DNA from: Porphyromonadaceae bacterium W3.11
GTDB taxonomy: Bacteria; Bacteroidota; Bacteroidia; Bacteroidales; Porphyromonadaceae
Direction: 5' to 3'
Length of the DNA stretch: 64,000 bases
Assembly: GCA_030434245.1 (NCBI GenBank)
Contig: JAUISX010000004.1
Span: 1 to 64,000, forward strand
Shown here piece after piece: positions 1-34,486 of the stretch. A model generated the notes under the pieces. The model had not been told where the DNA came from and ran no database searches. It worked only from the letters and a program-made list of their open reading frames with translations. Made by a program: the position numbers and the translations under genes. How positions within the stretch are numbered: the first letter of the stretch is position 1; each line of letters opens with the position of its first letter.

Positions 1-163
1 GCTGCGGCTTGAAAACTCACAATTGCAGGTCAACCAGCAGGAGCTGATGCGTCAGTTGGAGGCATTGCGTGAGGAGTCAGAAGCCATGAGTGCAGTGCTG
101 AAGGAGATGAACATTTCCATCCCTCGCAGGCGTAGAACTACAACTATTAAAAAGGATGAATAA
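1..163 (+). CDS. C-terminal end of a coiled-coil phage protein (partial)
   Basis: An open frame enters from the left edge and stops with TAA at 161-163. The 53 visible residues are rich in Gln, Glu and Leu with heptad-like spacing (QQELMRQLEALREE), then end in a basic tail RRRRTTTIKKDE. This suggests a coiled coil followed by a charged C-terminus. Its stop codon overlaps the ATG of the next gene (156), so it belongs to the same prophage operon. The function cannot be told from this fragment. Confidence 0.7.
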   Translation, partial: LRLENSQLQVNQQELMRQLEALREESEAMSAVLKEMNISIPRRRRTTTIKKDE

Positions 164-608
164 ACGATACTTAATACTCATGGTAATGCTCATCGCCCTT
201 GCAGGGTGCAGGGCGAAGCAACCTGTGATCCAGCAGGTGCCAATCAAGGAGACCACCCAAGTGGAGCTAAAGACAATTGAGCTACCAGGCGACTCGGTAC
301 TCATGCGAGTGCCGCTCGAACGGCTTTCAAATGGCACTCAGACATCAGGAGTGTCTGTCTCTCCTAAAGGGCTACAGCTGCTATGGCAATTAAGACAAGG
401 TATGCTCGAGCTACAAGCGAGGCACCCTCCAGAGCGCGTCGAGTACCCCGAAACGACTACCATCAAGGAAGTACCCGTGGAAGTGGTCCGAGAGATAGAA
501 GTGAGCCACCTACACTGGTGGCAGAAAGCCTTGATGTGGATCGGGGTAATTAGTATCATTTATATATCAATAAAAGAGGGCATGGAAAATGCTCCGAGGA
601 AATTATAA
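156..608 (+). CDS. Phage lipoprotein with C-terminal membrane segment, possible u-spanin
   Basis: The 150-residue product starts with a lipoprotein signal (MNKRYLILMVMLIALAGC, lipobox LAGC, acylated Cys 18). A mostly polar middle part with proline and charged residues follows, then a hydrophobic stretch near residues 123-142 (WWQKALMWIGVISIIYI) and a short charged tail. A lipoprotein signal plus a C-terminal transmembrane segment is the layout of unimolecular spanins such as phage T1 gp11, which join outer and inner membranes during lysis. That role is inferred from layout alone; no holin or endolysin is visible in the window. It overlaps the preceding gene by 8 bases. It could also be an ordinary envelope protein carried by the phage. 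Confidence 0.75.
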   Translation: MNKRYLILMVMLIALAGCRAKQPVIQQVPIKETTQVELKTIELPGDSVLMRVPLERLSNGTQTSGVSVSPKGLQLLWQLRQGMLELQARHPPERVEYPETTTIKEVPVEVVREIEVSHLHWWQKALMWIGVISIIYISIKEGMENAPRKL

Positions 609-609
609 C

Positions 610-641
610 ACTCTCCGAGAGTTTATGAATACTCTCCGAGA
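610..641 (+). repeat. Two direct copies of an 11-bp motif in an intergenic gap
   Basis: The motif ACTCTCCGAGA occurs at 610-620 and again at 631-641, 21 bp apart. It fills most of the 51-bp gap between the spanin-like gene and the HU-related gene. Genes in this operon otherwise abut or overlap, so the gap stands out. The motif is nearly palindromic. Two copies two helical turns apart would suit a dimeric DNA-binding protein; that is inference. Confidence 0.5.
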
Positions 642-659
642 ATAAATAGTAAGTAGAAT

Positions 660-1115
660 ATGGCATTTGAATATAAGATAGTCCAACGAAAAAGCAAGTT
701 GAATGGAGGGCAGCAGATACAAATGGCTACCCAGATGTCCAAAGGTAAAGTGCCTATCCGAGACATCGCAAAGAGACTTGAGCAAATTACCTCGCTTGGT
801 CGAGGTGATGTGATGAACGTACTGACGCACCTTGGCGAGGTGGTCAGTGAGTATATGCGGTTAGGGTATAGTGTTAATCTTCACGAGCTGGGCACCTTTA
901 CCCCACGCATTTCAAGTAAGTCAGTACCCGCTGGCGAAAAGTTTACCTCTGATTACATTCGAGGTGTTAAGATGCGCTTTACTCCATCTACCTTCATCAA
1001 GGCGGAGCTTAGTAGAGTGAAATTCGAGTGTCAAGCAGATGTGTGCAAGGCACCAACGACCAGCACACCACCTAAGGAGGAAACAACCCCAGAAGAAGGA
1101 GATACAGCAATCTAA
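660..1115 (+). CDS. HU-related DNA-binding protein of the long Bacteroidota type
   Basis: The 151-residue protein matches the HU-related family of Bacteroides and Porphyromonas (longer than HU, TIGR01201 type) in its opening MAFEYKIVQRKSKL, a helix-rich middle (residues 25-70, including GRGDVMNVLTHLGEVVSEYM) and the arm region VNLHELGTFTPRISSKSV, which mirrors the HU pattern around the GFGTF motif. The last 25 residues are a Pro/Thr/Glu-rich tail. It lies between the lipoprotein gene and the tail tube gene inside the phage structural operon. A role in DNA binding is likely from the family; whether it serves packaging, virion DNA or regulation is unknown. Confidence 0.8.
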   Translation: MAFEYKIVQRKSKLNGGQQIQMATQMSKGKVPIRDIAKRLEQITSLGRGDVMNVLTHLGEVVSEYMRLGYSVNLHELGTFTPRISSKSVPAGEKFTSDYIRGVKMRFTPSTFIKAELSRVKFECQADVCKAPTTSTPPKEETTPEEGDTAI

Positions 1116-1142
1116 TAGTAAACAGAATAAAGAGATAATAGT

Positions 1143-1670
1143 ATGTCAACAAATAATCCAATCGCAGTATTACGCATCAAGGAGGCTTACTTCGGAGAGC
1201 CGATTACCTCCAAGGATGCCATCGCAACCACCTCATTTACCACTAAGGCACCGATGCACTTTGATGGAGATGAAGTGGGTCTTTTCCGAGATAAACCCGA
1301 AAAATTTGAAATTGGCGTACACGAAAGCGACTCGCCTATCTACATCACTTACGACGGTGTACCTTACAAGTACACTGGTAGCTTTACCTCAGTAACGAAA
1401 GCACAGATGGCGGAGCTACTGGGTGGCGAAGCGACAGAAGGTGGTGTGGAGCTATCAGCTGATGTTAAGCGCATCCACAAGTCGGTTAAGCTGGTGATGA
1501 GCGACGGCTCGGTCATCGTCGTGCCCAACGCACAGGGATTTGTAACCATGAGCGGCAAAATTGGGAAAAAGAGTGTAGTTACCTTCCCATTCGAGTTCGA
1601 GTGCCTCGGGGCATCGACAGCGTGGAATGTCGCTATGGGTATCTACGATAAGGACCCATCAACGGTATAA
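1143..1670 (+). CDS. Probable major tail tube protein
   Basis: This 175-residue soluble, beta-rich protein has no signal peptide or membrane segment. No domain is named with certainty. Its position is diagnostic: it sits just before a frameshifted tail assembly chaperone and a long tape measure gene, the usual slot for the tail tube protein in siphovirus-like phages. The end of the chain (KSVVTFPFEFECLGAST) would suit a beta-sandwich. No tail sheath gene is seen next to it, which argues against a contractile tail, although a sheath gene upstream of the window cannot be excluded. ATG at 1143 follows the HU-related gene by 27 bases. Confidence 0.6.
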   Translation: MSTNNPIAVLRIKEAYFGEPITSKDAIATTSFTTKAPMHFDGDEVGLFRDKPEKFEIGVHESDSPIYITYDGVPYKYTGSFTSVTKAQMAELLGGEATEGGVELSADVKRIHKSVKLVMSDGSVIVVPNAQGFVTMSGKIGKKSVVTFPFEFECLGASTAWNVAMGIYDKDPSTV

Positions 1671-1673
1671 CCT

Positions 1674-2192
1674 ATGGACGATAGCACAATGAGTGCTCTC
1701 GACCTGATCCTCCAGCGGGGCGTGCGGTTTCGGCTGCCCGCCCCGTTTTGGAAAAGAGTGATAGGGAGAGACACGGTAAAGATTAAGCCCCCCAGTGTGG
1801 GTACCGCTCTTATGATTTTACATGAGGCGGTGATTAATGACTTGGCAGAAGAGGAGATAAGCCAACTATACGTAAATGTAATTACGCCAAAACAACTTCT
1901 CGGAGTTAAACGTATTGTAGCCATAGCGATTCTTGGCAAAGCTCAGCCGAGAGAAAGAGAATTGGCAAGATTAGTGGATAAACTTGACCAAGTACTTCTT
2001 AAAGATCTGTTGCACCTCTATAATCTTACGATGACGATGTGCAGGGGTGAAAATTTTCGGAAAGCTACTCTCTCGGTGTGGGCATTGATAAGGATGCTTC
2101 GGGTGAGGCCACAAAGCAAGACGAGTCAAGAGTCAAAGGACTCGATAGCGTCTTCGGAGTCATCGGCAAGTGGAAACGAGATAGAGGACTAA
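1674..2192 (+). CDS. Tail assembly chaperone, short form (gpG-like)
   Basis: The zero-frame product has 172 residues. It is helical and ends in a Ser/Glu/Lys-rich low-complexity tail, as unshifted chaperone tails often do. It lies 3 bases after the tube gene stop and before the tape measure gene, the slot of lambda gpG/gpGT. A heptamer AAATTTT at 2051-2057 sits in phase for a -1 slip into a second open frame that runs on to 2356. The last 45 residues (2058-2189) are read only by ribosomes that do not slip. The chaperone role is inferred from position and the frameshift design; the sequence itself has no motif I can name. Confidence 0.7.
   Translation: MDDSTMSALDLILQRGVRFRLPAPFWKRVIGRDTVKIKPPSVGTALMILHEAVINDLAEEEISQLYVNVITPKQLLGVKRIVAIAILGKAQPRERELARLVDKLDQVLLKDLLHLYNLTMTMCRGENFRKATLSVWALIRMLRVRPQSKTSQESKDSIASSESSASGNEIED
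2051..2057 (+). promoter_or_regulatory. Slippery heptamer for -1 ribosomal frameshift
   Basis: In the zero frame the codons read GAA AAT TTT CGG. A-AAT-TTT is an X-XXY-YYZ slippery heptamer. The -1 frame has a TGA at 2048-2050, directly before the heptamer, and is open from 2051 to the stop at 2354-2356. The slip window is therefore 2051-2192, and the heptamer sits exactly at its 5' edge. I see no strong stem-loop just downstream. Confidence 0.75.
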
Positions 2193-2356
2193 CACATGAG
2201 GATCTGATGGCTCAGCCACTTGCACTTTTGCTCCTCGAGGACATTGACCAACCATATATCGACTACAAGAGTAGCGAGGAAGATAAGGAGGAAACACCAG
2301 TGATAGAGGGGGCGAAAGAGTTAAGAAGTTTATTAGGCATCAAAGAAGAAAGTTAA
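2057..2356 (+). CDS. Tail assembly chaperone -1 frameshift extension (gpT-like)
   Basis: After a slip at 2057, translation continues in the -1 frame for 99 residues (SESYSLGVGIDKD... to ...LGIKEES). The fusion product would be about 227 residues, starting at 1674. The extension has no ATG near its start; the first possible internal start is GTG at 2078, well inside the upstream gene, so independent translation is unlikely. It is acidic and helical. It ends 3 bases before the tape measure ATG. In lambda and many tailed phages the T part of gpGT recruits the tail tube protein while G binds the tape measure; that division is family knowledge and is not shown here. Confidence 0.7.
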   Translation, partial: SESYSLGVGIDKDASGEATKQDESRVKGLDSVFGVIGKWKRDRGLTHEDLMAQPLALLLLEDIDQPYIDYKSSEEDKEETPVIEGAKELRSLLGIKEES

Positions 2357-2359
2357 AGC

Positions 2360-5300
2360 ATGGATGAGGTAAGCATTGACATACGGCTCAATAGTAACGT
2401 AGAGGAGGAAGCAGGTAAAGCGACCTCGGCCATACAGGAGATGGCGCAAGGTGCTTTGGATGCTCAGGCAAAGCTAAAAGCAACAATGGACTTCAGAAAA
2501 AAGCTAATCAATGAGCTGAAGAATGCCATCATTGAAATCAATGATCAGATACAAGCACTCTCCTCGAAGAATAAAGACTGGGGTCTCACCAAAGATGGGA
2601 AATTCTATAAGCAGGAGCTAGCATCTGTAAATAAAGAAATTGAACTACAGGAAAAGGCGTTGGCAGCTGAAAGCAAAGAACTGGAGAAACTCATAAACGG
2701 ATACGGTTTAATTGCTACGCAAATAAGAAAGACCAAAGCGGAGATGGCAACACTCTCGGCTGCTGGCAAACAGAATAGTGAGACCTACCGCAAGCTGGAG
2801 CGAGACCTCCAAGAATTAGCCGAAGCGCAAGCGATGGTCAATCGTACGGGGCAAGAGCTCGCAAAGGGTAATAGAAGCTGGCAAGGTCTTGCCGATGCTG
2901 TGAGTGCTTTTTCTGGTGCGGCATCAGCTGCCACTGGTGCGTGGACGCTCTTAGGGGGTAGCCAAGAGGACCAAGCCGCCATCCAAACCAAGCTGCAATC
3001 ACTGATGGCGATTACTATTGGTTTGCAGCAGGTGCAAAATGTATTGCTCGAGACCTCTACGTTTCGCATACAGACGGTAACCAAGGTCAAACGCTTTTGG
3101 TCCACCGCAAACACTAAATTAGCCGCATCATTGGGTATGTCTGCGGCAGCAGCCAAAGCACTCACCGCGACAATTACCCTCGGTTTGTCCGTCGCTATCG
3201 GCTTTTTAATCTCAGCTTATGACAAGTGGCAGAGCAAGCAAAAGGCGATACGTGAGGAGCAGGAGCGCTTTGCCTCCTCTGTATCGAATAAAGTTGGTGA
3301 TGTCATTGCTACCTACAAGCGACTACAACAAGAGTTTGTAGCACTCAATGGTAACCTGAAAAAGCAAAAAGAGTTTGTCCAGAAGAATGCCGAAGCTTTT
3401 AAGCAGATGGGTGTAAAGGTAGATGATGTACGATCTGCCGAAAATCTACTGGTTGATAACACCGACGCCTTTGTCAAAAGCGTCATGATTAGGGCTAAGG
3501 CTGCCGCATCCATGGAGCTAGCCAGCGAAAAATACAAAGAGAGCATTCAAAAGATGATGCAGGCAGAGCAAAGAGCTGCCAATCCTACTGGTATGGATAG
3601 CTGGTTTGCATTTGAAGAAAATGTAAGGCAGTTTACTCTGGGCCTTGGGTGGGGAGACACGGATGGAGGTTATATCGCTAAACTAAGAAGTCGTGATATA
3701 GCTGATGACGCTCGTAAGGATAGAGAGGCAGGAGACCTTCTAATACAGAACTCTTTGAACTTTGAAAAAGAATACAAAGAGATCTGGGATAACATCGGAG
3801 TGGTCCCCATCGATACTATCAGTAAGAGTAGTAAGAGTACAGAAAATGCGTACAAAAAAATGTCGGATCGTCTTGCTCAAATCGCCAAGGCTAATGAGGA
3901 GGAACTGCTGGCTATTGAGTTGGCAGCACTTAAGGAGGGGCGCGAGAAGAAGCTCCGAGAGCTGGAGATAGAAAATGAGAAGCGTAAGGCACTCCTCAAG
4001 GAGCGTCAGCGTGAGCTCGAGGAAATCGCCAAGGCGGGAATTGATACTACCGCCCAGCAAGCAAAACTTAAGCTCGTCAGCGACAATGGCGATGCTGAGT
4101 ACCTCCGCAAGGTAGCCGAAGCAAATGCGGCATCTGACCGCATCATCCAAGAGGTGGAGGCAACCCTTGATGCCAAGGTGGCTACCCGACAGGAACAACG
4201 CATTGCCCAAACTAAGCGTGAGTATGATGAGTGGCGGAAGGAGGCGGAAGCACACGTGAGGGATAAGGAGGAGCTTGCCGACATCCTCGTCCGAATAGCT
4301 ACCGAAGAGCAAGCGGAGCTCTCTCGCATCCGAAAGGAGGGCGAGCTGGACCGCATCGACTTCGAGGAGATGATAGCTCTCCGCCGCATACAGATCTCCA
4401 ACAAGCGGTATAACCTTGAGACGGAGCGTGAGGAGGAACTCCTCGAAACGGAGCTGGCATTTGCCCAAAAAAGACAAGCTAAGCTACAGGAGATGCAGGC
4501 GAATGGTGCTGATGTGGGCAAGGAGATAGAGGAGGTCACCGAGCGTATCAAAGACCTCACCGATGCCCTCGAGGATATACCCGTCCGCAAACTGGAGGAG
4601 ATGGGTCGAGGCCTGCAGAGCATTTTCGGCTCGCTGTCTAAGTTGGGCGGAGAAATCGGCGAAACCTTTAGCTCGCTCGCCGAGTCGGTTGGTATTGCTG
4701 TTTCTGGGATAAAGTCCAAACTGTCTATAGATAAAGTGAGCGCTGCCATTTCGGGCATCATGCAGGTGGCAGATGTCGCCATACAGCAGGCTAAGGAAAA
4801 TCGAGAGTTCATGAAGGCGTGGCAGGAGGCAAACGAGTCTGCACTGCAGGTAGCTCGGATGCAACGCATCGAGGCAGCAGGCTATAAAGAGGGTAATATC
4901 TTCGGCGTCGAAAACCCCTACGCACGAGCCATCGCTGGGGCTAAACAGTACGCTAAGACGATGTATGAGCTGCAGGCACTCTCCCGTACCCTTGCCAATG
5001 GCCAAGTGCAGGTGGGTAGCAAAAAGGTAGTATCAGGCAGTAATGTGGCCAAAGGGGCAGCTGGTGGTGCAGCCGCTGGCGGTGTGGTGGGGTCTATATT
5101 TGGACCCATAGGTACAGCCATCGGTGCTGGTATCGGTGCCCTCATTGGTGGTATCTTCGGTGGATCTAAGAAAAAACTGGTGCCAGTTTTCGAATCTCTC
5201 GGCAAAAAGTATAAGGAGATATATGACAAGGATACTTTTGCACTCAACCCCGAAATCCTACAGGACTATGCTAAGCTGGATGACGCCACCAAAAAGTTGG

Positions 5301-5989
5301 TGGACAATTGGGATGCGATTCAAAAGAAAGCGCAGGAGGCGGAGCAACAGATGCGGGATAACTTCCGCTCGCTCTCTGGTGACATTGGTAGCCAGCTCTC
5401 CGAAGCGCTGAAGAAGGGAATAGCCGATGGCGATATCTATGCTGCCTTTGATGACTTCAAGTCGTACGCCTCTAAGGTCATCTACGACATCGGCGAGCAG
5501 ATGATTTTCGCTCAGTTTTTCCAAGAGTCTTTCGATGAGCTCCAGAAGCGGATGGAGGATAGCTTTGGGGCAGGAGGAGACGGTGACATCAGAGACGATA
5601 TCCGTTGGCTGGTCGATTCGGCTCGGGGCAATATCGATGGCTATAAAGATGCCATGGATGCTTTTCGGTCTGAGCTGGAGAAACAAGGTCTGCAGCTCCC
5701 TGATATGGATGCAGGGCGCAAGGCGGAGGCTCGAGGTATTGGTAGGATGACGCAAGACTCTGCAGAGCGACTCGAGGGACTGATGACGGTGCAGGTGGAC
5801 CGACTATCGACCCTCGTAACTTACGCCAAGCAGACGGACGATTACCAGCGTGATGCAAGGGTGTACTTTGCTACCATGATCCGACAGATTGACCGCATCG
5901 CAGCGAATAGCGACTATCTCCGCAAGCTTGATAACATCGCTACTGACATGTATAGAGTGGCACAAGACGGTATTTACCTAAAGAAATAA
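2360..5989 (+). CDS. Tail tape measure protein
   Basis: The 1209-residue protein has long charged coiled-coil stretches (about 30-130, 300-360 and 500-750, rich in Glu, Lys, Arg and Ala). It has a hydrophobic segment around 253-288 (AAAAKALTATITLGLSVAIGF) and a Gly/Ala-rich hydrophobic run around 899-935 (GAAGGAAAGGVVGSIFGPIG onward). This mix of length, coiled coils and hydrophobic islands is typical of tape measure proteins, which set tail length and later act at the host membrane. By the usual rule of about 1.5 angstrom per residue the tail would be near 180 nm. It directly follows the chaperone genes. A 287-residue antisense open frame inside it is a codon-bias shadow. Confidence 0.9.
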   Translation: MDEVSIDIRLNSNVEEEAGKATSAIQEMAQGALDAQAKLKATMDFRKKLINELKNAIIEINDQIQALSSKNKDWGLTKDGKFYKQELASVNKEIELQEKALAAESKELEKLINGYGLIATQIRKTKAEMATLSAAGKQNSETYRKLERDLQELAEAQAMVNRTGQELAKGNRSWQGLADAVSAFSGAASAATGAWTLLGGSQEDQAAIQTKLQSLMAITIGLQQVQNVLLETSTFRIQTVTKVKRFWSTANTKLAASLGMSAAAAKALTATITLGLSVAIGFLISAYDKWQSKQKAIREEQERFASSVSNKVGDVIATYKRLQQEFVALNGNLKKQKEFVQKNAEAFKQMGVKVDDVRSAENLLVDNTDAFVKSVMIRAKAAASMELASEKYKESIQKMMQAEQRAANPTGMDSWFAFEENVRQFTLGLGWGDTDGGYIAKLRSRDIADDARKDREAGDLLIQNSLNFEKEYKEIWDNIGVVPIDTISKSSKSTENAYKKMSDRLAQIAKANEEELLAIELAALKEGREKKLRELEIENEKRKALLKERQRELEEIAKAGIDTTAQQAKLKLVSDNGDAEYLRKVAEANAASDRIIQEVEATLDAKVATRQEQRIAQTKREYDEWRKEAEAHVRDKEELADILVRIATEEQAELSRIRKEGELDRIDFEEMIALRRIQISNKRYNLETEREEELLETELAFAQKRQAKLQEMQANGADVGKEIEEVTERIKDLTDALEDIPVRKLEEMGRGLQSIFGSLSKLGGEIGETFSSLAESVGIAVSGIKSKLSIDKVSAAISGIMQVADVAIQQAKENREFMKAWQEANESALQVARMQRIEAAGYKEGNIFGVENPYARAIAGAKQYAKTMYELQALSRTLANGQVQVGSKKVVSGSNVAKGAAGGAAAGGVVGSIFGPIGTAIGAGIGALIGGIFGGSKKKLVPVFESLGKKYKEIYDKDTFALNPEILQDYAKLDDATKKLVDNWDAIQKKAQEAEQQMRDNFRSLSGDIGSQLSEALKKGIADGDIYAAFDDFKSYASKVIYDIGEQMIFAQFFQESFDELQKRMEDSFGAGGDGDIRDDIRWLVDSARGNIDGYKDAMDAFRSELEKQGLQLPDMDAGRKAEARGIGRMTQDSAERLEGLMTVQVDRLSTLVTYAKQTDDYQRDARVYFATMIRQIDRIAANSDYLRKLDNIATDMYRVAQDGIYLKK

Positions 5990-5993
5990 TGTG

Positions 5994-6740
5994 ATGGCGA
6001 CACTGATCAACAATATAGACATTAATGCACAAGGCATCTACCTCGCACGTCATGGCGCGGAGGAACTCTTTACGCTCCCTAATCTCTCCGATGCGGAGGT
6101 CAATGACTGGCAGGAGGTGGAGGGCTTACAGGTGGACTTTACCACCGTCCAGATCCAGCACCCCGAGGTGGTGGTGCGTTACGTGGTTACTTCGCTCGCC
6201 GCTCGGTCGGCTCTCGAGCAATACCACAAGGCAGAGAGCATTAAGCTAACGCCCCACGGCTGGGGGCGTACCTTTACCCTCCGCAAGGCTAATGCGGACA
6301 ACTGCAAGGTGCTGGCCAAGGGTGATCATATCATGGAAATAGCCTATCGCTATGAGCTGGACGACTTGCCTAAGACTCAGATAACGTCAGATGTGGAGCC
6401 TGTAGTTTTTAGATCAAGATACAAAATTGGAGGTGTCTCACTATCTCAATTTGGAATGGTCATCAACGAGACACATGCGCTCTATACACCTGATGATTTT
6501 AAGGCATTGACGCTCGTGCGAGATATGAGAGAGGCACAACTAATGTGTACGATGTTCGCATCATCTTGGTCGGTGCTGTGGGCTAATCGTGCAGCTCTCT
6601 GGGATGCTCTGCAAGGGGAGTTATCTCTATCTACGGACATGGGCACAACTCTTAAGGCTCGCTACCTCTCATGCTCGACACCTAAGCAGGTGAGCCAGCA
6701 ACCAGTTATCTCATTTACGCTTAATCTACAATTGATATGA
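5994..6740 (+). CDS. Probable distal tail protein (Dit-like)
   Basis: The product is 248 residues from the ATG at 5994; a GTG three bases earlier is in frame but less likely. It has no signal peptide or membrane segment. It opens with MATLINNIDINAQGIYLARHG and looks beta-rich throughout. Its place between tape measure and tail hub/fibre genes is that of the distal tail protein, which forms the ring joining tube and hub in siphoviruses. It overlaps the next gene by 4 bases (ATGA), so the two are translationally coupled. No family name can be given from sequence alone. Confidence 0.55.
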   Translation: MATLINNIDINAQGIYLARHGAEELFTLPNLSDAEVNDWQEVEGLQVDFTTVQIQHPEVVVRYVVTSLAARSALEQYHKAESIKLTPHGWGRTFTLRKANADNCKVLAKGDHIMEIAYRYELDDLPKTQITSDVEPVVFRSRYKIGGVSLSQFGMVINETHALYTPDDFKALTLVRDMREAQLMCTMFASSWSVLWANRAALWDALQGELSLSTDMGTTLKARYLSCSTPKQVSQQPVISFTLNLQLI

Positions 6741-9700
6741 TAACTATATACAACGCACAAGGAACTAAGATTATTGATGTGGCCAACCTCGAGGGGAGCT
6801 ACTGCGATCGCTCGATCATGGGTGGCAGCACCCTCCAGTTGGTGGTTAAATCTGATAAACCTATTGATATCCCTCTTAACTCTTATGTGGAGTATGAGGC
6901 ACGTCGCTATACATTGCTCTACCCAGCGAGCATCAAAAAGCAACACAGCAAGGAGTTTGATTACACCCTGCTTTTTCACGGTGAGGAGGAGCTCCTCTCC
7001 TCCTGTCTCATCAAGGATATCTCGGGTGGCATACCTTACCGAGTGAAGTTTGCCATCACAGCTAAACCGATTGACTTCGTCCGCTGTATCGTGGACTCGC
7101 TCAATGAGCACTACGGCGGTGGGTGGAGTGTTGGCAATGTGATCGAGGCGACCGAACAGACACTCGCCTTTAGTCATGAGTACTGCCTCGGGGCCATCTC
7201 TAGAGTGGCGGAGGTGTTTAATACTGAGTTTAGCGTCGACAATAAGACGGTATCGCTCGGCAAGGTAAGCATCATGGAGGATAACCCTCTACCGATGAGC
7301 TATGGCAATGGTAAGGGGTTCCGCCCTGGCACTGGGCGACACAATGACGGTAAAAAGTCGGCGATCGGCAAACTCTATGTCGAGGGTGGCACACGTAATA
7401 TCGACTACTCAACCTACGGAGCTCAAACACTCCTCCTACCTAAATCTGCAACGCTACAGTACAATGGTCGTACATATCATACGGATGCGCATGGCATGTA
7501 CATCACCTGTGATCAGGCAATCGGCACTGCGGAGGATAGCTACGATGGATCCGCCGTATATCCGATGCGGGAGGGTACAGTGTCTGAGGTCATTGAGGAG
7601 GCAGATGGATACGATTTTACCGACACCTCTATCCCTGAGAGCTTGAATTTTAACGACTACCGTATCAAAGGCGAAAAAGCGGTGGTGGTCTTTCAGACGG
7701 GAGCACTCACAGGGCGGGAGTTTGCTCTTGTGCAAACGAAAGGCAAACTCAGTGGCTATATCCACTCCGAGCGAAAGTTTAAGCTCGTGAGCGAGGAGCA
7801 GGATGGATTTATGATGCCTGGGGGCAACTTTGTCCCCAAGGAAGGTGATAAGTACGCCATCTTCAATATCACCCTCCCTGCCGAATACCTCTCGAACGCT
7901 TCTCAAAGGCTCTTCGAGGAGGCAGTACGATACTTCGATACGGTCATTAATCCTCCCTATATCTTTTCTGGGGAGGTAGATCCCATCTGGGCGAAGAAGG
8001 AGTGGCTACGCATCGGTGGGTATATGCAGCCAGGTGGGCATTTACTTTTTAGCGACCCGCAGTATCACCCCGAGGGATCTGTCATCCGAGTGACGGGTGT
8101 CCGCACACTCCTCGACAAGCCCTACGCTCCACAGCTCACCCTCTCCAATGCACCAGCTGCACTCAGTGTGAGTAACGCCCTCTCCAAGCTCGAAGCAGAC
8201 AAGGTGATAGCCGAGCGAGAGCGGAGGGCACAGCAACGCTCGCAGCGACAGGACTACCAGCAGGCGCTGGAGTTCATCGGGATGGTCGAAAAGGCTATTG
8301 AAGGGCTGGAGGGCTTTACGGCGAGGATAAAACCGAGCGTCGTGGAGACCATGGCAATTCTTATAGGTAGCCAGGCGACACAGTTTGGATTTGTCCAAGC
8401 GATTAATTCGCTTGAGGCTGCCCCTTTTTCTGTGAATTATGACCCCAGCACCAAGCGAGTAATCATCAGTAAGGGCATCATTAGACATCAGACCATCGGC
8501 ATTACCGATATGACTGCTAATCGACCAGCTACCGATTACCGCTACTGGTCAATCCCTGAGTACATCTCACCAGCACTTACTGATGATTTCGCCAGCTACT
8601 ACATATATGCTAAGGTAGATAGAGATGGTGAGATAGGCAATTATCTGCTGTCGGAAAAACCTATAGAAATGGAGAGTAATCCACAGAGCTATCATCTCCT
8701 TATTGGAACTTTATCCAGCATTGTGGATGGCGATAGAGCGTACAATAAGCTATACGGTTACAGCCTTTTCACTCCAGGTCAAATGGTCCTAAATACCATC
8801 TCGAGCACAAACGGTGCTATGACCATTAACCTCGAGACTGGCGAAATCTTTTCGGATAGTATTAGTTTTCGTCGTCCAGATAGTGGGACAAAAACTAATA
8901 TTATTGATTACATTGACGAGCTTGACGAACATCAAGCAATTATAAAAGATGGCACTTGGTGGCGATGGGATGGTGAAAAGTACGTGGATACAGGTGAGGT
9001 CGCTAAGGGCGACTCTGGTCCTCGTGGGCTGCAAGGAGTCCAAGGCCCTCAGGGAGTGCAGGGCATACCAGGTGCTAAAGGAGCGGACGGTAAAACCTCT
9101 TACACTCATATCGCCTACGCTGACAATGCGAGCGGTGGAGGCTTTAGCCAAGATCCAGCTGGAAAGGCATATATCGGTATGTACGTTGACTTTGTGCAAG
9201 AGGATAGCAGCGACCACAAGAAGTATAAGTGGTCACTGATTAAGGGTGCAGATGGGCGCAACGGTACCCCAGGCAAGGCGGGTGCAGATGGTCGCACCCC
9301 TTACCTGCATATCGCCTATGCTAATAGTTCGGATGGTCGGCAAGGGTTTAGCGTGAGCGATAGCCAAGGTAAGTCATATATCGGGCAGTACACCGACTAT
9401 AACCAGGCAGACAGCACCGATCCAACTCAATACAAATGGACGCTCATTAAAGGCCGCGATGGTCGTGACGGTAAGGATGGAAAGGACGGCTTACAAGGAT
9501 TACAAGGGAAAGACGGCAAGGACGGACTCCCTGGTCGTGACGGTAAGGATGGGAAAACTCAATATACCCACATCGCTTATGCCAATAACGCATCGGGTGG
9601 TGGCTTCTCTCAGTCTCCTACTGGAAAGGCTTATATTGGTATGTATGTGGACTTCGTCGCCACAGACTCGAGTGACCCAAAGAAGTATAAGTGGTCGCTC

Positions 9701-12235
9701 ATCAAGGGGGCAGATGGGCGTGACGGCATCGCTGGTAAGGCAGGAAAAGACGGCCGAACCCCTTACCTGCACATCGCTTATGCTAATAGTTCGGATGGTC
9801 GTCAAGGGTTTAGCGTGAGCGATAGCCAAGGCAAGACCTATATCGGCACTTACACCGACTTTGTGAAGGCGGATAGCACAGATCCAAGCAAGTACAAATG
9901 GAGCTTGATCAAGGGGGACAAGGGTGATAAGGGCGACTCTGGTCCTCGTGGGCTGCAAGGAGTCCAAGGTCCTCAGGGAGTGCAGGGCATACCAGGTGCT
10001 AAAGGAGCGGACGGTAAAACCTCTTACACTCATATCGCCTACGCTGACAATGCGAGCGGTGGAGGCTTTAGCCAAGATCCAGCTGGAAAGGCATATATCG
10101 GTATGTACGTGGACTTTGTGCAAGAGGATAGCAGCGACCACAAGAAGTATAAGTGGTCACTGATTAAGGGTGCAGATGGGCGCAACGGTACCCCAGGCAA
10201 GGCGGGTGCAGATGGTCGCACCCCTTACCTGCATATCGCCTACGCCACATCAGCAGACGGAAAGAAGGGTTTTAGTACAACTGTGTCAGCAGGCAAGACC
10301 TATATCGGCACTTACACCGACTTTGTGAAGGCGGACAGCACTACTCCATCAGATTACAAGTGGACGCTCATTAAGGGTGAAAAAGGGGACCGAGGTCCGA
10401 CTGGTCCGAAAGGCGACGGTCTAGACGTCAAGGACACTAGAAATGATAACCAACTGCCAAACTGGTATCGTGAGAATTACCGACTCACAACCGTCAAGGA
10501 GTTTAAGTTTCAAGGTGTTATTGAAATTCCGAAGGTCTGGAGGGATGGCTCGTATTGCACGCTTGAGACGACAGTCAATTGGGGTGATAAAAGTGGCGGT
10601 CGAGTGACGCAGAAAGCGACTCTTAACAGCGGTCAGGAGTTGTATCGTGTCGGTGGTGCTGATGATAGTGCGTGGGGCGAATGGAGCAATCTCAAAGCGG
10701 AGGTACAAGAGATGAACGCTGGACTTTCCAATGCCAACACCCTCATCTCATCGATCGAGACCATCACTAAGCAACTGAAGGAGGGCAAACTTGACGCCAG
10801 CAAGTTCGATGACATCCGCTACCTCACCGACGCCCTCCAGCACGGCGAGACCACCATAGCTGGCGGTCTTCTGCTCACGAAATCCATCCTCATGAGTAAC
10901 GTGAGTGGCGGGATCACAACCGCCATCTCAGGCTACAACGAGGGGGGCGGTGTCGCTTTCGAAGCAGGGATCAAGAACTATAAGCAAGAGAACCACACCT
11001 CCCGAGTGGTAATCAACCACGACGGAACAGCTCGATTCGGCGACATGTATGTCAATACCGAAGATGAGGATGTCGTGAAATTTATAGATCAGTCGTCTGG
11101 AAAAAATCACGAGTATCTGAAGTTTGGCGGGACGGCTCCTTCTGAGAGCTACATGAACGATCAGAGCACAGAGATTAAAGAGTTCCCAATGCCGTCCGCA
11201 CGAGCTAAAAATCGTAGCGGTTCATTCATAATTGGTCGTGAATATGAGAGTATCGAAAGTAACAGAGAGATAAGGCATGAGTTTGAATTGACAGCTACAG
11301 CAGAGGCAGTCGCAATTCGGGAAGATTTTAACGGAGGGCCATCGGTCATGTCAGCTACACAATCCGATTATGGTCCTGGAAGCAACAAGGGTGACAAAGT
11401 AATCACATATCTGCCAGCTTGGGCGAATAGCACGGCTCATGTGGAGGTCAAAGTGTACAATAAATCTGGAGTCGTCGTATGGAGCGACACAAGCACGAAA
11501 GTCACCGCAAGTGCACACGCTAGTGGAGGCTCCGTATCATTAAAGGATATCCTACCCCTTGAGGATATCCAAGATGTGCAGACCCAGACGAAGAAAGTAT
11601 ATATGCGCATTCCAGCAAATGTAATGGTAAAAGGGTACAAATGGAGGGTTTACTTAGTCATCAGTGGCTCGGCAACTCACGGCGGAAGCTCATACGAAGC
11701 ACACACTAAGAACGGGAAGGAGTTTGTCCCCTACGACAAAAGCAAGCCATTCGTAGCTATTGCTAAGGATAAGGTCGCCTTCTTTTTTGGTAGGCAAAGG
11801 CAAATCCTCCTTAATTATGCCTCCGATTGGCTCATGAAAATCATCGGCAACGTCCTCGTCCAGGGAACCATCAAGGCAGACATCCTCGAAGCAGGAGAGT
11901 GGAGAGGCAGCGGAGCCGTCCTCGCTGGTGCAACGTTTGACAAGAATGGAAGGGAGTTAAAAAGCTTCGGGAAGTATAAAAACAGGAAGGGGCAGAGTTC
12001 TGCTTATACAGTCTATTCTTACAATAGTAAGCTCTATACTGTCTACCACTCCATCCCCCACAGCCGATACGTGCCGATAGTGCAGGTGTCAGGAGAAACA
12101 GGAGGCAATGGCGGATGGTCACTAACACCACGAGTCTATAGTGTCTCGGCGTATAGCTTTACCGTTGGGATTATCACCAATGGAGACAACAAAACACGAA
12201 ATGGGCTATCCTACGTAGCTTACCAGGCTGACTAA
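6737..12235 (+). CDS. Tail hub/fibre protein with collagen-like linkers and repeated modules
   Basis: The 1832-residue protein appears to be modular. Residues 1 to about 480 look like a tail hub (tail-associated) region. About 490-520 is a charged helix (KLEADKVIAERERRAQQRSQ). Residues 755-1230 alternate Gly-X-Y collagen-like linkers (GPRGLQGVQGPQGVQGIPG) with six related modules of about 50 residues that begin HIAYA and end YKWSLIKG or YKWTLIKG. About 1230-1330 resembles a pyocin-knob type domain. The last 500 residues are beta-rich and probably include the receptor-binding tip. Collagen-like triple helices are common in phage fibres. Two 315-bp stretches are nearly identical at DNA level, so module number can probably change by recombination. 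The stop codon forms part of a terminator stem. Confidence 0.8.
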   Translation: MITIYNAQGTKIIDVANLEGSYCDRSIMGGSTLQLVVKSDKPIDIPLNSYVEYEARRYTLLYPASIKKQHSKEFDYTLLFHGEEELLSSCLIKDISGGIPYRVKFAITAKPIDFVRCIVDSLNEHYGGGWSVGNVIEATEQTLAFSHEYCLGAISRVAEVFNTEFSVDNKTVSLGKVSIMEDNPLPMSYGNGKGFRPGTGRHNDGKKSAIGKLYVEGGTRNIDYSTYGAQTLLLPKSATLQYNGRTYHTDAHGMYITCDQAIGTAEDSYDGSAVYPMREGTVSEVIEEADGYDFTDTSIPESLNFNDYRIKGEKAVVVFQTGALTGREFALVQTKGKLSGYIHSERKFKLVSEEQDGFMMPGGNFVPKEGDKYAIFNITLPAEYLSNASQRLFEEAVRYFDTVINPPYIFSGEVDPIWAKKEWLRIGGYMQPGGHLLFSDPQYHPEGSVIRVTGVRTLLDKPYAPQLTLSNAPAALSVSNALSKLEADKVIAERERRAQQRSQRQDYQQALEFIGMVEKAIEGLEGFTARIKPSVVETMAILIGSQATQFGFVQAINSLEAAPFSVNYDPSTKRVIISKGIIRHQTIGITDMTANRPATDYRYWSIPEYISPALTDDFASYYIYAKVDRDGEIGNYLLSEKPIEMESNPQSYHLLIGTLSSIVDGDRAYNKLYGYSLFTPGQMVLNTISSTNGAMTINLETGEIFSDSISFRRPDSGTKTNIIDYIDELDEHQAIIKDGTWWRWDGEKYVDTGEVAKGDSGPRGLQGVQGPQGVQGIPGAKGADGKTSYTHIAYADNASGGGFSQDPAGKAYIGMYVDFVQEDSSDHKKYKWSLIKGADGRNGTPGKAGADGRTPYLHIAYANSSDGRQGFSVSDSQGKSYIGQYTDYNQADSTDPTQYKWTLIKGRDGRDGKDGKDGLQGLQGKDGKDGLPGRDGKDGKTQYTHIAYANNASGGGFSQSPTGKAYIGMYVDFVATDSSDPKKYKWSLIKGADGRDGIAGKAGKDGRTPYLHIAYANSSDGRQGFSVSDSQGKTYIGTYTDFVKADSTDPSKYKWSLIKGDKGDKGDSGPRGLQGVQGPQGVQGIPGAKGADGKTSYTHIAYADNASGGGFSQDPAGKAYIGMYVDFVQEDSSDHKKYKWSLIKGADGRNGTPGKAGADGRTPYLHIAYATSADGKKGFSTTVSAGKTYIGTYTDFVKADSTTPSDYKWTLIKGEKGDRGPTGPKGDGLDVKDTRNDNQLPNWYRENYRLTTVKEFKFQGVIEIPKVWRDGSYCTLETTVNWGDKSGGRVTQKATLNSGQELYRVGGADDSAWGEWSNLKAEVQEMNAGLSNANTLISSIETITKQLKEGKLDASKFDDIRYLTDALQHGETTIAGGLLLTKSILMSNVSGGITTAISGYNEGGGVAFEAGIKNYKQENHTSRVVINHDGTARFGDMYVNTEDEDVVKFIDQSSGKNHEYLKFGGTAPSESYMNDQSTEIKEFPMPSARAKNRSGSFIIGREYESIESNREIRHEFELTATAEAVAIREDFNGGPSVMSATQSDYGPGSNKGDKVITYLPAWANSTAHVEVKVYNKSGVVVWSDTSTKVTASAHASGGSVSLKDILPLEDIQDVQTQTKKVYMRIPANVMVKGYKWRVYLVISGSATHGGSSYEAHTKNGKEFVPYDKSKPFVAIAKDKVAFFFGRQRQILLNYASDWLMKIIGNVLVQGTIKADILEAGEWRGSGAVLAGATFDKNGRELKSFGKYKNRKGQSSAYTVYSYNSKLYTVYHSIPHSRYVPIVQVSGETGGNGGWSLTPRVYSVSAYSFTVGIITNGDNKTRNGLSYVAYQAD
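9004..9318 (+). repeat. Direct repeat copy 1 inside the tail fibre gene (315 bp)
   Basis: This stretch matches 9928-10242 at a constant offset of 924 bp, with two mismatches seen by eye (C/T near 9056 and T/G near 9187). It encodes a collagen-like linker, one complete HIAYADNASGG module and the next linker. Such identity, including synonymous positions, points to a recent duplication or ongoing gene conversion. Confidence 0.9.
9928..10242 (+). repeat. Direct repeat copy 2 inside the tail fibre gene (315 bp)
   Basis: Second copy of the 9004-9318 segment. The offset of 924 bp is a multiple of three (308 codons), so recombination between copies would remove or add whole modules and keep the frame. 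Confidence 0.9.
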
Positions 12236-12282
12236 AAGAGAGGGAGGAGCGACCAATTATAGTCGCTCCTCCCTCTCTTTTA
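12233..12282 (+). terminator. Perfect 21-bp hairpin between converging genes
   Basis: Arms 12233-12253 and 12262-12282 are exact reverse complements, with an 8-base loop CAATTATA. The outer ends are A-rich on the left and T-rich on the right, so the structure can act as an intrinsic terminator for both the phage tail operon (ending 12235) and the reverse-strand lipoprotein gene (ending 12299). The TAA stop of the tail fibre gene is the first three bases of the stem. Confidence 0.9.
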
Positions 12283-12298
12283 ACTGTGTGGAGAATCT

Positions 12299-12871
12299 TT
12301 ATTGCTTCCCCGCAGCTTTTAGTGCTTCCCACTCCGCTTTGGTGATGGGAGTCGCTGTAAATGCTTTTTCGAACAGCTCATAAACCTTTTTATAGTCCCC
12401 TGACTTGTATGCTTTGCGAATCCCCTCGCTCGCCTCTTTCATGACAGCATTGGGGATGTAAGCCCCGACGTCACCCTCCGCAATGGGGATAAGGATACGC
12501 ACATCACGCCAATCTAAAAATGCCTCGTTTAATGTTCCGTCTTCGGTTATTATCATCTCCCCCCACATCTTTATCCTGGCGTTAGCGATATCTCTTTGTT
12601 CATCGCCGACTCCAATGCCTGTTTCACGCCCCATATCTGGAGCGTACATGTGAAATGCCAAAGCCTTTTCTACTACCTCCCGAGGCGATAACCTCGTATA
12701 CTTGTCACCCTCTACTTTTGGTATTGTGTTGTCCTCAATTACCCTCATACCCTCATTTTTAATGTTAACATAAACGAAAGCACCATCCTTGAGCACCTTC
12801 GGCTTTTTGTCTCCGTTACACGCTGTAAGCAGTGCCACCACTGCCAGCATCATCACTAATACCTTTTTCAT
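12299..12871 (-). CDS. Prophage-end lipoprotein of unknown function
   Basis: The 190-residue product starts with MKKVLVMMLAVVALLTAC (lipobox LLTAC, acylated Cys 18), so it should be a lipoprotein. The mature part is soluble and mixed alpha/beta with a helical C-terminus (about 140-190, EASEGIRKAYKSGDYKKVYE). I do not recognise the family. It is read against the tail operon, lies between that operon's terminator and the putative phage end, and has its own weak promoter. This is the usual place for a 'moron', a gene a prophage expresses in the lysogen; an effect on host surface or superinfection is possible but unproven. Confidence 0.8.
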   Translation of the reverse strand: MKKVLVMMLAVVALLTACNGDKKPKVLKDGAFVYVNIKNEGMRVIEDNTIPKVEGDKYTRLSPREVVEKALAFHMYAPDMGRETGIGVGDEQRDIANARIKMWGEMIITEDGTLNEAFLDWRDVRILIPIAEGDVGAYIPNAVMKEASEGIRKAYKSGDYKKVYELFEKAFTATPITKAEWEALKAAGKQ

Positions 12872-12906
12872 ATTATTTTAGTTTTTATAATTAATTGATT
12901 CTTTTA

Positions 12907-12914
12907 CAAATATA
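12907..12914 (-). promoter_or_regulatory. Possible -7 element for the prophage lipoprotein gene
   Basis: On the reverse strand the bases read TATATTTG, a match to the Bacteroidota TAnnTTTG element, 36 bases before the ATG at 12871. I see no clear -33 TTTG at the right spacing. The site touches the 22-bp repeat array that starts at 12919, so a protein bound to the array could control it. Confidence 0.4.
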
Positions 12915-12918
12915 CACT

Positions 12919-13028
12919 AATCCGCGTATATAGTTCGCTAAATCCGTTAATATCGTCCAGTGAATTCGTTAGTACTTGTGGATAAATCCGTTAGTACTAA
13001 CGAATAACTCCGTTTATACTTCTTAGTT
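12919..13028 (+). repeat. Five tandem 22-bp repeats, candidate transposase-binding sites at the prophage right end
   Basis: Units start at 12919, 12941, 12963, 12985 and 13007, exactly 22 bp apart and contiguous. The conserved core is AATCCGTTAGTAC; columns 1, 3, 5, 6, 11, 12 and 21 are identical in all five units. Two helical turns per unit places every site on the same DNA face. MuA and TnsB recognise 22-bp sites clustered at element ends. The array lies just beyond the last prophage gene, where the right end of a Mu-like phage would be. Alternatives are replication iterons (no rep gene is near) or an operator for the lipoprotein promoter. Confidence 0.7.
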
Positions 13029-13096
13029 CGTTCTCCACTCGACCACCACCAGAGAGCGAATAATATTATAAATGTACGTGTGCGTCACAATCAAAT

Positions 13097-13180
13097 GAGC
13101 CGTTTCGTTTTTCCTACCACCCATCCAATCAATAAAGAAAAAAGCCATTTCGTTTTGTCTTCGAGAGCCGTTTCGTTTCG
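13097..13180 (+). repeat. Three copies of a 15-bp motif RAGCCRTTTCGTTTT
   Basis: Copies begin at 13097, 13142 and 13165 (spacing 45 and 23 bp). The third copy differs in its last bases. They lie between the 22-bp array and the dispersed palindromic repeat. They share CCGTT with the 22-bp units but are otherwise different. They could be a second set of sites for the phage end or host sequence; I cannot decide which. Confidence 0.5.
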
Positions 13181-13191
13181 ACGGTTATATT

Positions 13192-13277
13192 ATATAAAAG
13201 AGAAATGCTTCTCATAGGAAAAAATTATTTTTCATATGAGAAGGAGAACTGTTTCCTATGAGATGAATTTCATCTCA
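13192..13277 (+). repeat. Dispersed palindromic repeat, copy A
   Basis: This 86-bp segment aligns without gaps to 60128-60213 with about 79% identity by eye. Its centre is an inverted repeat of the form TTCTCATAgGAAAAA / TTTTTCATATGAGAA, followed by GTTTCCTATGAG. Both copies are in non-coding DNA upstream of forward-strand genes. A host-wide repeat here suggests that chromosomal sequence has begun by 13192. The 12872-13510 gap contains no supported gene. Confidence 0.65.
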
Positions 13278-34329: not shown

Positions 34330-34486
34330 CAAAAATATAACTTCATCGTAATTAAAACGTAACACTTTAACATTTAAATAATATTATTAAATCAGTTGAT
34401 TAATCAAATCATTAAATACAAGAATCAGAGTATATCAATCAACGAAAGATAAATGGTAAAAATGACTATGTTTCATCTTTTCTTTT

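Follow-up and report, generated by a model that had tools for sequence, protein, structure and literature searches.

A tandem array of 22-bp dyads inside the right end of a Mu-like Porphyromonadaceae prophage, probably a regulator-binding element

Five contiguous 22-bp units just inside the right end of a Mu-like prophage (positions 12919 to 13028 of the window, the 64,000-nucleotide stretch of DNA analysed here) are probably tandem dyadic operator sites, helically phased, for a dimeric regulator encoded by the phage. The units repeat, are dyadic, recur at three kinds of place, are restricted to prophages within the genome and differ between allelic right ends; protein binding, cooperativity and control of the adjacent genes are proposed from these features. 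To the eye, the end array of a transposase hardly differs from a regulatory array just inside that end, and here the two could be told apart.

The window corresponds to C4:1-64000 of a 2.63-Mb draft genome which belongs to the same genus as Porphyromonas levii and P. bennonis. Its contig starts within the prophage, with tape-measure-like, tail and collagen-repeat fibre genes up to 12235, followed by an oppositely oriented lipoprotein gene and then the array.

1 to 13189, plus strand: Mu-like prophage, right-hand part with late and tail genes; the left part lies on another contig
12299 to 12871, minus strand: predicted lipoprotein gene, 190 aa, moron-like, with homologues in other phages

As the window holds the late half only, the MuA and MuB genes were read in sister prophages, two of which are complete (C1:282.36-316.8k, 34,474 bp, and C2:241.1-273.6k) while others are partial (C1 at 647.6k, termed C1b; C3; C5; C9; and C2 at 12.77k, termed C2b). 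In sister prophage L019, a MuA-like transposase (8873-10963; PHROG transposase, E 3e-65) is followed by a MuB-like protein (10986-11825; PHROG DNA transposition protein, E 3e-40). A search of the genome with the Pfam family Mu-transpos_C gave no match, and neither did its control. The original prediction of a Mu-like element is borne out by these two genes, by a short target duplication and by the fact that no integrase or att site was met in the prophage analysis, which together identify a transposable prophage of the Mu type. At least five close Mu-like prophages (on C1, C2, C3, C4, C5 and C9) reside in the genome with their immunity and right-end modules swapped, next to more distant ones at C4:290k, C2:507k and C4:417k. 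Within the tail fibre gene, three 462-bp repeats (window 9004-10371) encode collagen-like and structural repeats.

The description of the array as five contiguous 22-bp repeats with more divergent outer units stood up to examination. The units start at 12919, 12941, 12963, 12985 and 13007, and their sequences are given in minus-strand reading:

12919 to 12940, minus strand: array unit 1, nearest the promoter, TAGCGAACTATATACGCGGATT
12941 to 12962, minus strand: array unit 2, CACTGGACGATATTAACGGATT
12963 to 12984, minus strand: array unit 3, TATCCACAAGTACTAACGAATT
12985 to 13006, minus strand: array unit 4, TATTCGTTAGTACTAACGGATT, a near-perfect dyad with 9 of 10 pairs
13007 to 13028, minus strand: array unit 5, AACTAAGAAGTATAAACGGAGT, the most divergent unit

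The repetition is far above chance. The self-match is 0.62 at a lag of 22 and 0.58 at a lag of 44, with about 0.1-0.4 at the other lags between 5 and 49; none of 5000 dinucleotide shuffles matched this periodicity, and the array is the top 110-bp stretch for periods of 15-30 across the 64-kb window; and the core AATCCGTTAGTAC, with at most 2 mismatches, is found 6 times in the window against 1.2 expected. TRF alone detects only the inner 2.4 copies because the outer units have diverged.

On the minus strand the unit reads TAT(C/T)CG-N8-AACGGATT, and each 22-bp unit holds a dyad of about 20 bp, ATCCGt-N8-aCGGAT, with TA at its centre. When 13 units from three arrays are pooled, the conserved positions are both half-sites and the central TA, in a symmetric profile, with complementary pairing of 59% at the TA axis against at most 44%, and mostly 20-30%, at other axes. 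Judged by its sequence, the unit has the shape of a dimer-binding site that recurs every two helical turns. Since a period of 22 bp puts successive sites on one face of the helix, a phage-encoded dimer could bind the units of about 20 bp cooperatively along that face.

The motif is confined to prophages within this genome: a two-unit pattern has 14 exact matches in the 2.63 Mb, all within prophage arrays, and its reversed control has none. Outside this genome, no array of the motif was found in the genus and family, with scattered matches at about the control level, and none in public phage records. Three kinds of place carry it, namely the right end (array a), the interval between MuB and the next gene (array b) and a position about 30 bp before an AAA ATPase gene (array c). 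Arrays b and c are intergenic within the early operon, about 5.4-5.5 kb and 7.6 kb inside the left end, and all five sister left halves keep their order at a distance of about 2.15 kb. As would be the case for a regulator-binding array, the dyads lie upstream of genes, and arrays a, b and c share one orientation relative to the downstream gene.

The true ends of the prophage follow from comparison of the sister copies, the left terminus being TAGGGGGG and the right one the TTATA at window position 13189. The array is therefore near the end, as had been predicted, although it lies about 160 bp inside the terminus and not at it. The complete C1 sister (34,474 bp) has another motif, AACGAA(A/G)(C/T)G, in exactly 6 copies, at positions 13, 106, 436 and 34386, 34431, 34454 and nowhere else; all copies face inward, three at the left and three inverted at the right. 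Three P. gingivalis phages carry it at 13, 108 and 438-439, so that the positions of the left end sites are conserved even though the transposases of these phages share only about 33% identity with that of the prophage. The right-end copies in the window are as follows:

13100 to 13109, minus strand: putative transposase end site R3, AACGAAACGG; sister counterpart at 34386 of 34474
13145 to 13154, minus strand: putative transposase end site R2, AACGAAATGG
13168 to 13177, minus strand: putative transposase end site R1, AACGAAACGG
13189: right terminus of the prophage, ...GGTTATA
13190 to 13193: candidate 4-bp target duplication TTAT; the same TTAT precedes the left end at C1:647.65k

Mu itself has three transposase sites per end (PMC3362531), and the prophage has comparable sites (AACGAAACGG, 3 + 3, inverted) distinct from the 22-bp array. 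These sites, rather than the 22-bp units, are the candidates for transposase binding. The original prediction had taken the units for sites of a MuA/TnsB-like transposase at the right end, and they could also be cast as an internal enhancer bound by the transposase, since the enhancer of Mu is internal and bound by a separate MuA domain (PMC3362531). The MuA- and MuB-like proteins of a Mu-like element, a unit length of 22 bp and an end only about 160 bp away would all suit such a role, and the predicted MuA-like gene does exist in the sister copies. The role is nevertheless very unlikely, because the true ends carry the other motif, two of the three arrays sit in intergenic DNA of the early operon, and C2b shares the right end without having an array. 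Moreover, the left end, where matching inverted repeats had been expected, is free of the 22-bp motif and its nearest array is about 5.4 kb inside, an outcome which the original prediction had itself named as speaking against transposase binding. The transposase of the P. levii phage points the same way, being 68% identical to that of the prophage while its 22-bp arrays differ in sequence. In contrast to the end sites of Mu, then, the array has another motif, lies inside the ends, has no left-end copy, is dyadic and recurs between genes.

A short target duplication is present as predicted, with a length of 4 bp fitting better than the 5 bp that had been suggested. The flanks of four left/right pairs show CATA (C1), AATT (C3/C5), TAAA (C2) and TTAT (C1b/window); the C1 and C2 pairs each sit on one contig, whereas the C3/C5 and C1b/window pairings, and with them the joining of the window's right end to the left end at C1:647.65k, are inferred. 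A 4-bp duplication fits all four pairs and leaves TA at both termini, while a 5-bp duplication starting with A fits three of four; the duplication is thus apparently 4 bp, compared with 5 bp in Mu. For P. gingivalis transposable phages, 4-bp bounding repeats are reported as well (PMC10367356). The prophage family is inserted at no fewer than 5 different sites in the genome. A search of relatives for the empty site of the window prophage did not find its two flanks adjacent. A palindromic element of about 51 bp (window 13190-13240), with dozens of copies in the genome, adjoins the prophage. The left end contains GGTGGTCGA repeats (L019 6505-6730), of which CTCGACCACCACC is an inverted copy located between the array and the right-end sites (window 13033-13056).

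At the other side of array a lies the lipoprotein gene, and here the original prediction, which put the array behind the last phage gene, was mistaken about direction: the gene at 12299-12871 points left, so the array precedes its promoter instead of following a terminal gene.

12907 to 12914, minus strand: putative -7 promoter box of the lipoprotein gene, TATATTTG, matching TAnnTTTG

The consensus of the Bacteroidota -7 promoter box is TAnnTTTG. TATATTTG is 4 bp from array a and 35 bp ahead of the start codon, and such proximity means that the array probably covers the -33 region. Occupancy of array a would then act on the DNA ahead of the -7 box and so control the lipoprotein promoter, either by repression or by activation. 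The lipoprotein allele of C2b, which is free of the array, has a -7 box of its own, TAAGTTTG, and the array therefore looks like an added regulatory element. No TAnnTTTG box was found within 160 bp upstream of the genes behind arrays b and c. Homologues of the lipoprotein occur in the sister prophages, the C4:290k prophage and phages of G011 and L127; its AlphaFold model (pLDDT 44) is too poor for use.

The position of the promoter also bears on the idea that the units are a functionless tandem duplication near gene starts or a 5' leader element acting at the RNA level. Tandem repeats do adjoin start codons in several related phages, that of P. bennonis even entering the ATG, and the inverted repeats could form hairpins. 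Array a, being upstream of the lipoprotein promoter, would be absent from that mRNA, which argues against an RNA element. Rfam searches around the array gave sub-threshold matches only and none on the array itself. Diverged units conserve only the symmetric half-sites and the central TA, and one motif is present at three unlinked places, so that both versions of this idea are improbable.

The preferred reading, regulator binding, extends to the early operon, where the same putative regulator would also bind array b behind MuB and array c ahead of the AAA ATPase gene, and the two arrays might gate the second half of the operon. Between them lies a gene for a small serine recombinase (Resolvase PF00239, E 6e-31; PHROG DNA invertase), 36 bp from array c. 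It is unlikely that the arrays are res/gix-like recombination sites of this enzyme, despite the proximity of the gene, the central TA of the dyads and the variation of cassettes at array a (C1 and C5 carry a KilA-N gene there). The gene is present in only 2 of 122 related phages and 22-bp arrays are also found in phages without it, the five sister left halves show neither deletion nor inversion, and a 20-bp dyad is short for the dimer site of a serine recombinase. The segment from MuB to AAA (L019 11826-14063) forms a cassette with the recombinase inside and arrays b and c as borders, and it contains an ORF in which the AAA start is fused to the MuB end. The P. levii phage has a single array between MuB and AAA; together with the fused ORF, this suggests that arrays b and c may both derive from a single ancestral array through a tandem duplication.

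Contiguous direct repeats of 22 bp also resemble iterons, and genes for HU-HIG and AAA proteins stand beside some of the arrays. A replication, partition or packaging function, in which the array would be bound by a replication initiator, a ParB-like protein or a terminase, is nonetheless highly improbable: the prophage proteins tested included none recognisable as Rep- or Par-like, the arrays lie at several gene starts, one sister right end has none, and Mu-like phages replicate by transposition.

To narrow down the protein that might bind the operator-like arrays, the differences between the sister copies must be considered. Their right ends take three forms: the lipoprotein gene with five units (window and C2), the lipoprotein gene with two units and a KilA-N gene (C1 and C5), and another lipoprotein allele with no array and unchanged end sites (C2b). 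C3 and C1b have a different CI-like repressor and a different early HTH protein, yet their arrays b and c are identical to the others. The array is therefore optional, lies outside the core end and is independent of the immunity module. Divergence between the sister copies in the early region that they share is only 2-3%, and the swap of modules could therefore have left too little time for the arrays to respond. The comparison with the P. levii phage, where the DNA-binding domain of CI is almost identical and the array motif is different, is free of this weakness and bears on CI only. As far as sequence allows, CI is excluded as the binder by both comparisons, the same CI domain going with a different array in P. 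levii, and arrays b and c staying identical beside another CI in C3 and C1b.

The early HTH protein (phrog_16858) was initially preferred, since its recognition helix differs from phage to phage. It is an unlikely binder, as the HTH protein of C3 and C1b is 34% identical to it while arrays b and c are identical, and the presence of a related early HTH gene in the C4:290k Mu-like phage, which has no array, weakens its case further. A host regulator is rejected since no host arrays exist genome-wide. This leaves proteins of the modules shared by the sister copies as candidates, one of them a three-helix protein of 70-100 aa at the end of the early operon, where Mu has Mor/C; it is conserved in the phage group and its model has a pLDDT of 80, with no PHROG match and no PDB match by Foldseek.

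Related phages have 22-bp-period arrays of their own sequence. The P. levii phage carries arrays of the ACTAGTGATGGGTG type in the MuB-AAA interval and upstream of a HU-HIG gene, P. bennonis has an array of the CTACTAGTAC type which reaches into the HU-HIG start codon, and GTTTGGTACGYRAAGTATTTCT units are found at a gene start in the G011 prophage. A threshold scan found no intergenic 22-bp array in the C4:290k phage, the P. gingivalis phages or the hankyphage relative tested. Across 122 non-redundant related phage loci, repeated noncoding 8-mers favour spacings of 11-12, 21-22, 32, 42-44 and 53-57; the enrichment near multiples of 10.5-11 bp (a modest result, reached in 59 of 5000 permutations) is confounded by 12-bp repeats and mixes several kinds of repeat. 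It is conceivable, though less likely than not, that Bacteroidota transposable phages share an undescribed control layout, in which a small number of gene starts carry tandem dyads with a period of 22 bp (two turns), each phage has its own motif, and the dyads are bound by a fast-diverging regulator distinct from the immunity repressor.

Among the close parallels to the array are phage operator clusters such as Mu c/Ner and lambda OL/OR, which consist of tandem dyads beside a promoter with one motif per phage. The array likewise consists of tandem dyads adjoining a promoter. Unlike these clusters, it is situated away from the repressor and early promoter, its binder is apparently not the immunity repressor, and the arrays have 3-5 contiguous copies with an exact 22-bp period. 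In cluster A mycobacteriophages, each stoperator is one asymmetric site to which the immunity repressor binds; stoperators share with the present motif the intergenic location, the orientation fixed to transcription and the differences between related phages (PMC9283540, PMC6550527). By contrast, the units described here are tandem dyads at three places only, and CI is excluded on sequence grounds. The hankyphage and the P. gingivalis transposable phages (PMC12135933, PMC10367356) belong to the same Bacteroidota Mu-like lineage and have gene order, MuA, MuB and AAA in common with the prophage; the passages located in the two papers do not describe 22-bp arrays. The P. gingivalis phages share the end sites as well.

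Regulation of Bacteroidota transposable phages beyond the CI-like repressor has been little studied, and the arrays suggest that gene control has a second level, separate from CI, in phages that are common in oral and gut Bacteroidota. In addition, the true termini of this Porphyromonas transposable phage, which is present in multiple copies, are now mapped together with its candidate transposase sites.

Several other features were observed in the same phages. The DNA-binding half of CI and the adjacent operator region (L019 7043-7777, compared with 5037-5777 of P. levii phage L076) are nearly identical and the rest is 60-70% alike, which indicates a recent exchange at the CI region. In the interval that separates the CI gene from the left end, TAGGGTGGAC is present in five copies (L019 6740-6850) with 12-bp and longer spacings, about 390-490 bp from the left end, and is possibly a transposition enhancer or an operator; similar TTTAGGGTTACA/TTTAGGGTATGCA arrays occupy the same region in many related phages. 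A second intergenic repeat, CTCTCCGAGAG, forms pairs 21 bp apart and 20-30 bp ahead of start codons, at window 611-652 (before the HU-HIG gene at 660) and at L019 11931-11975 (before the gene of 158 aa that follows MuB).
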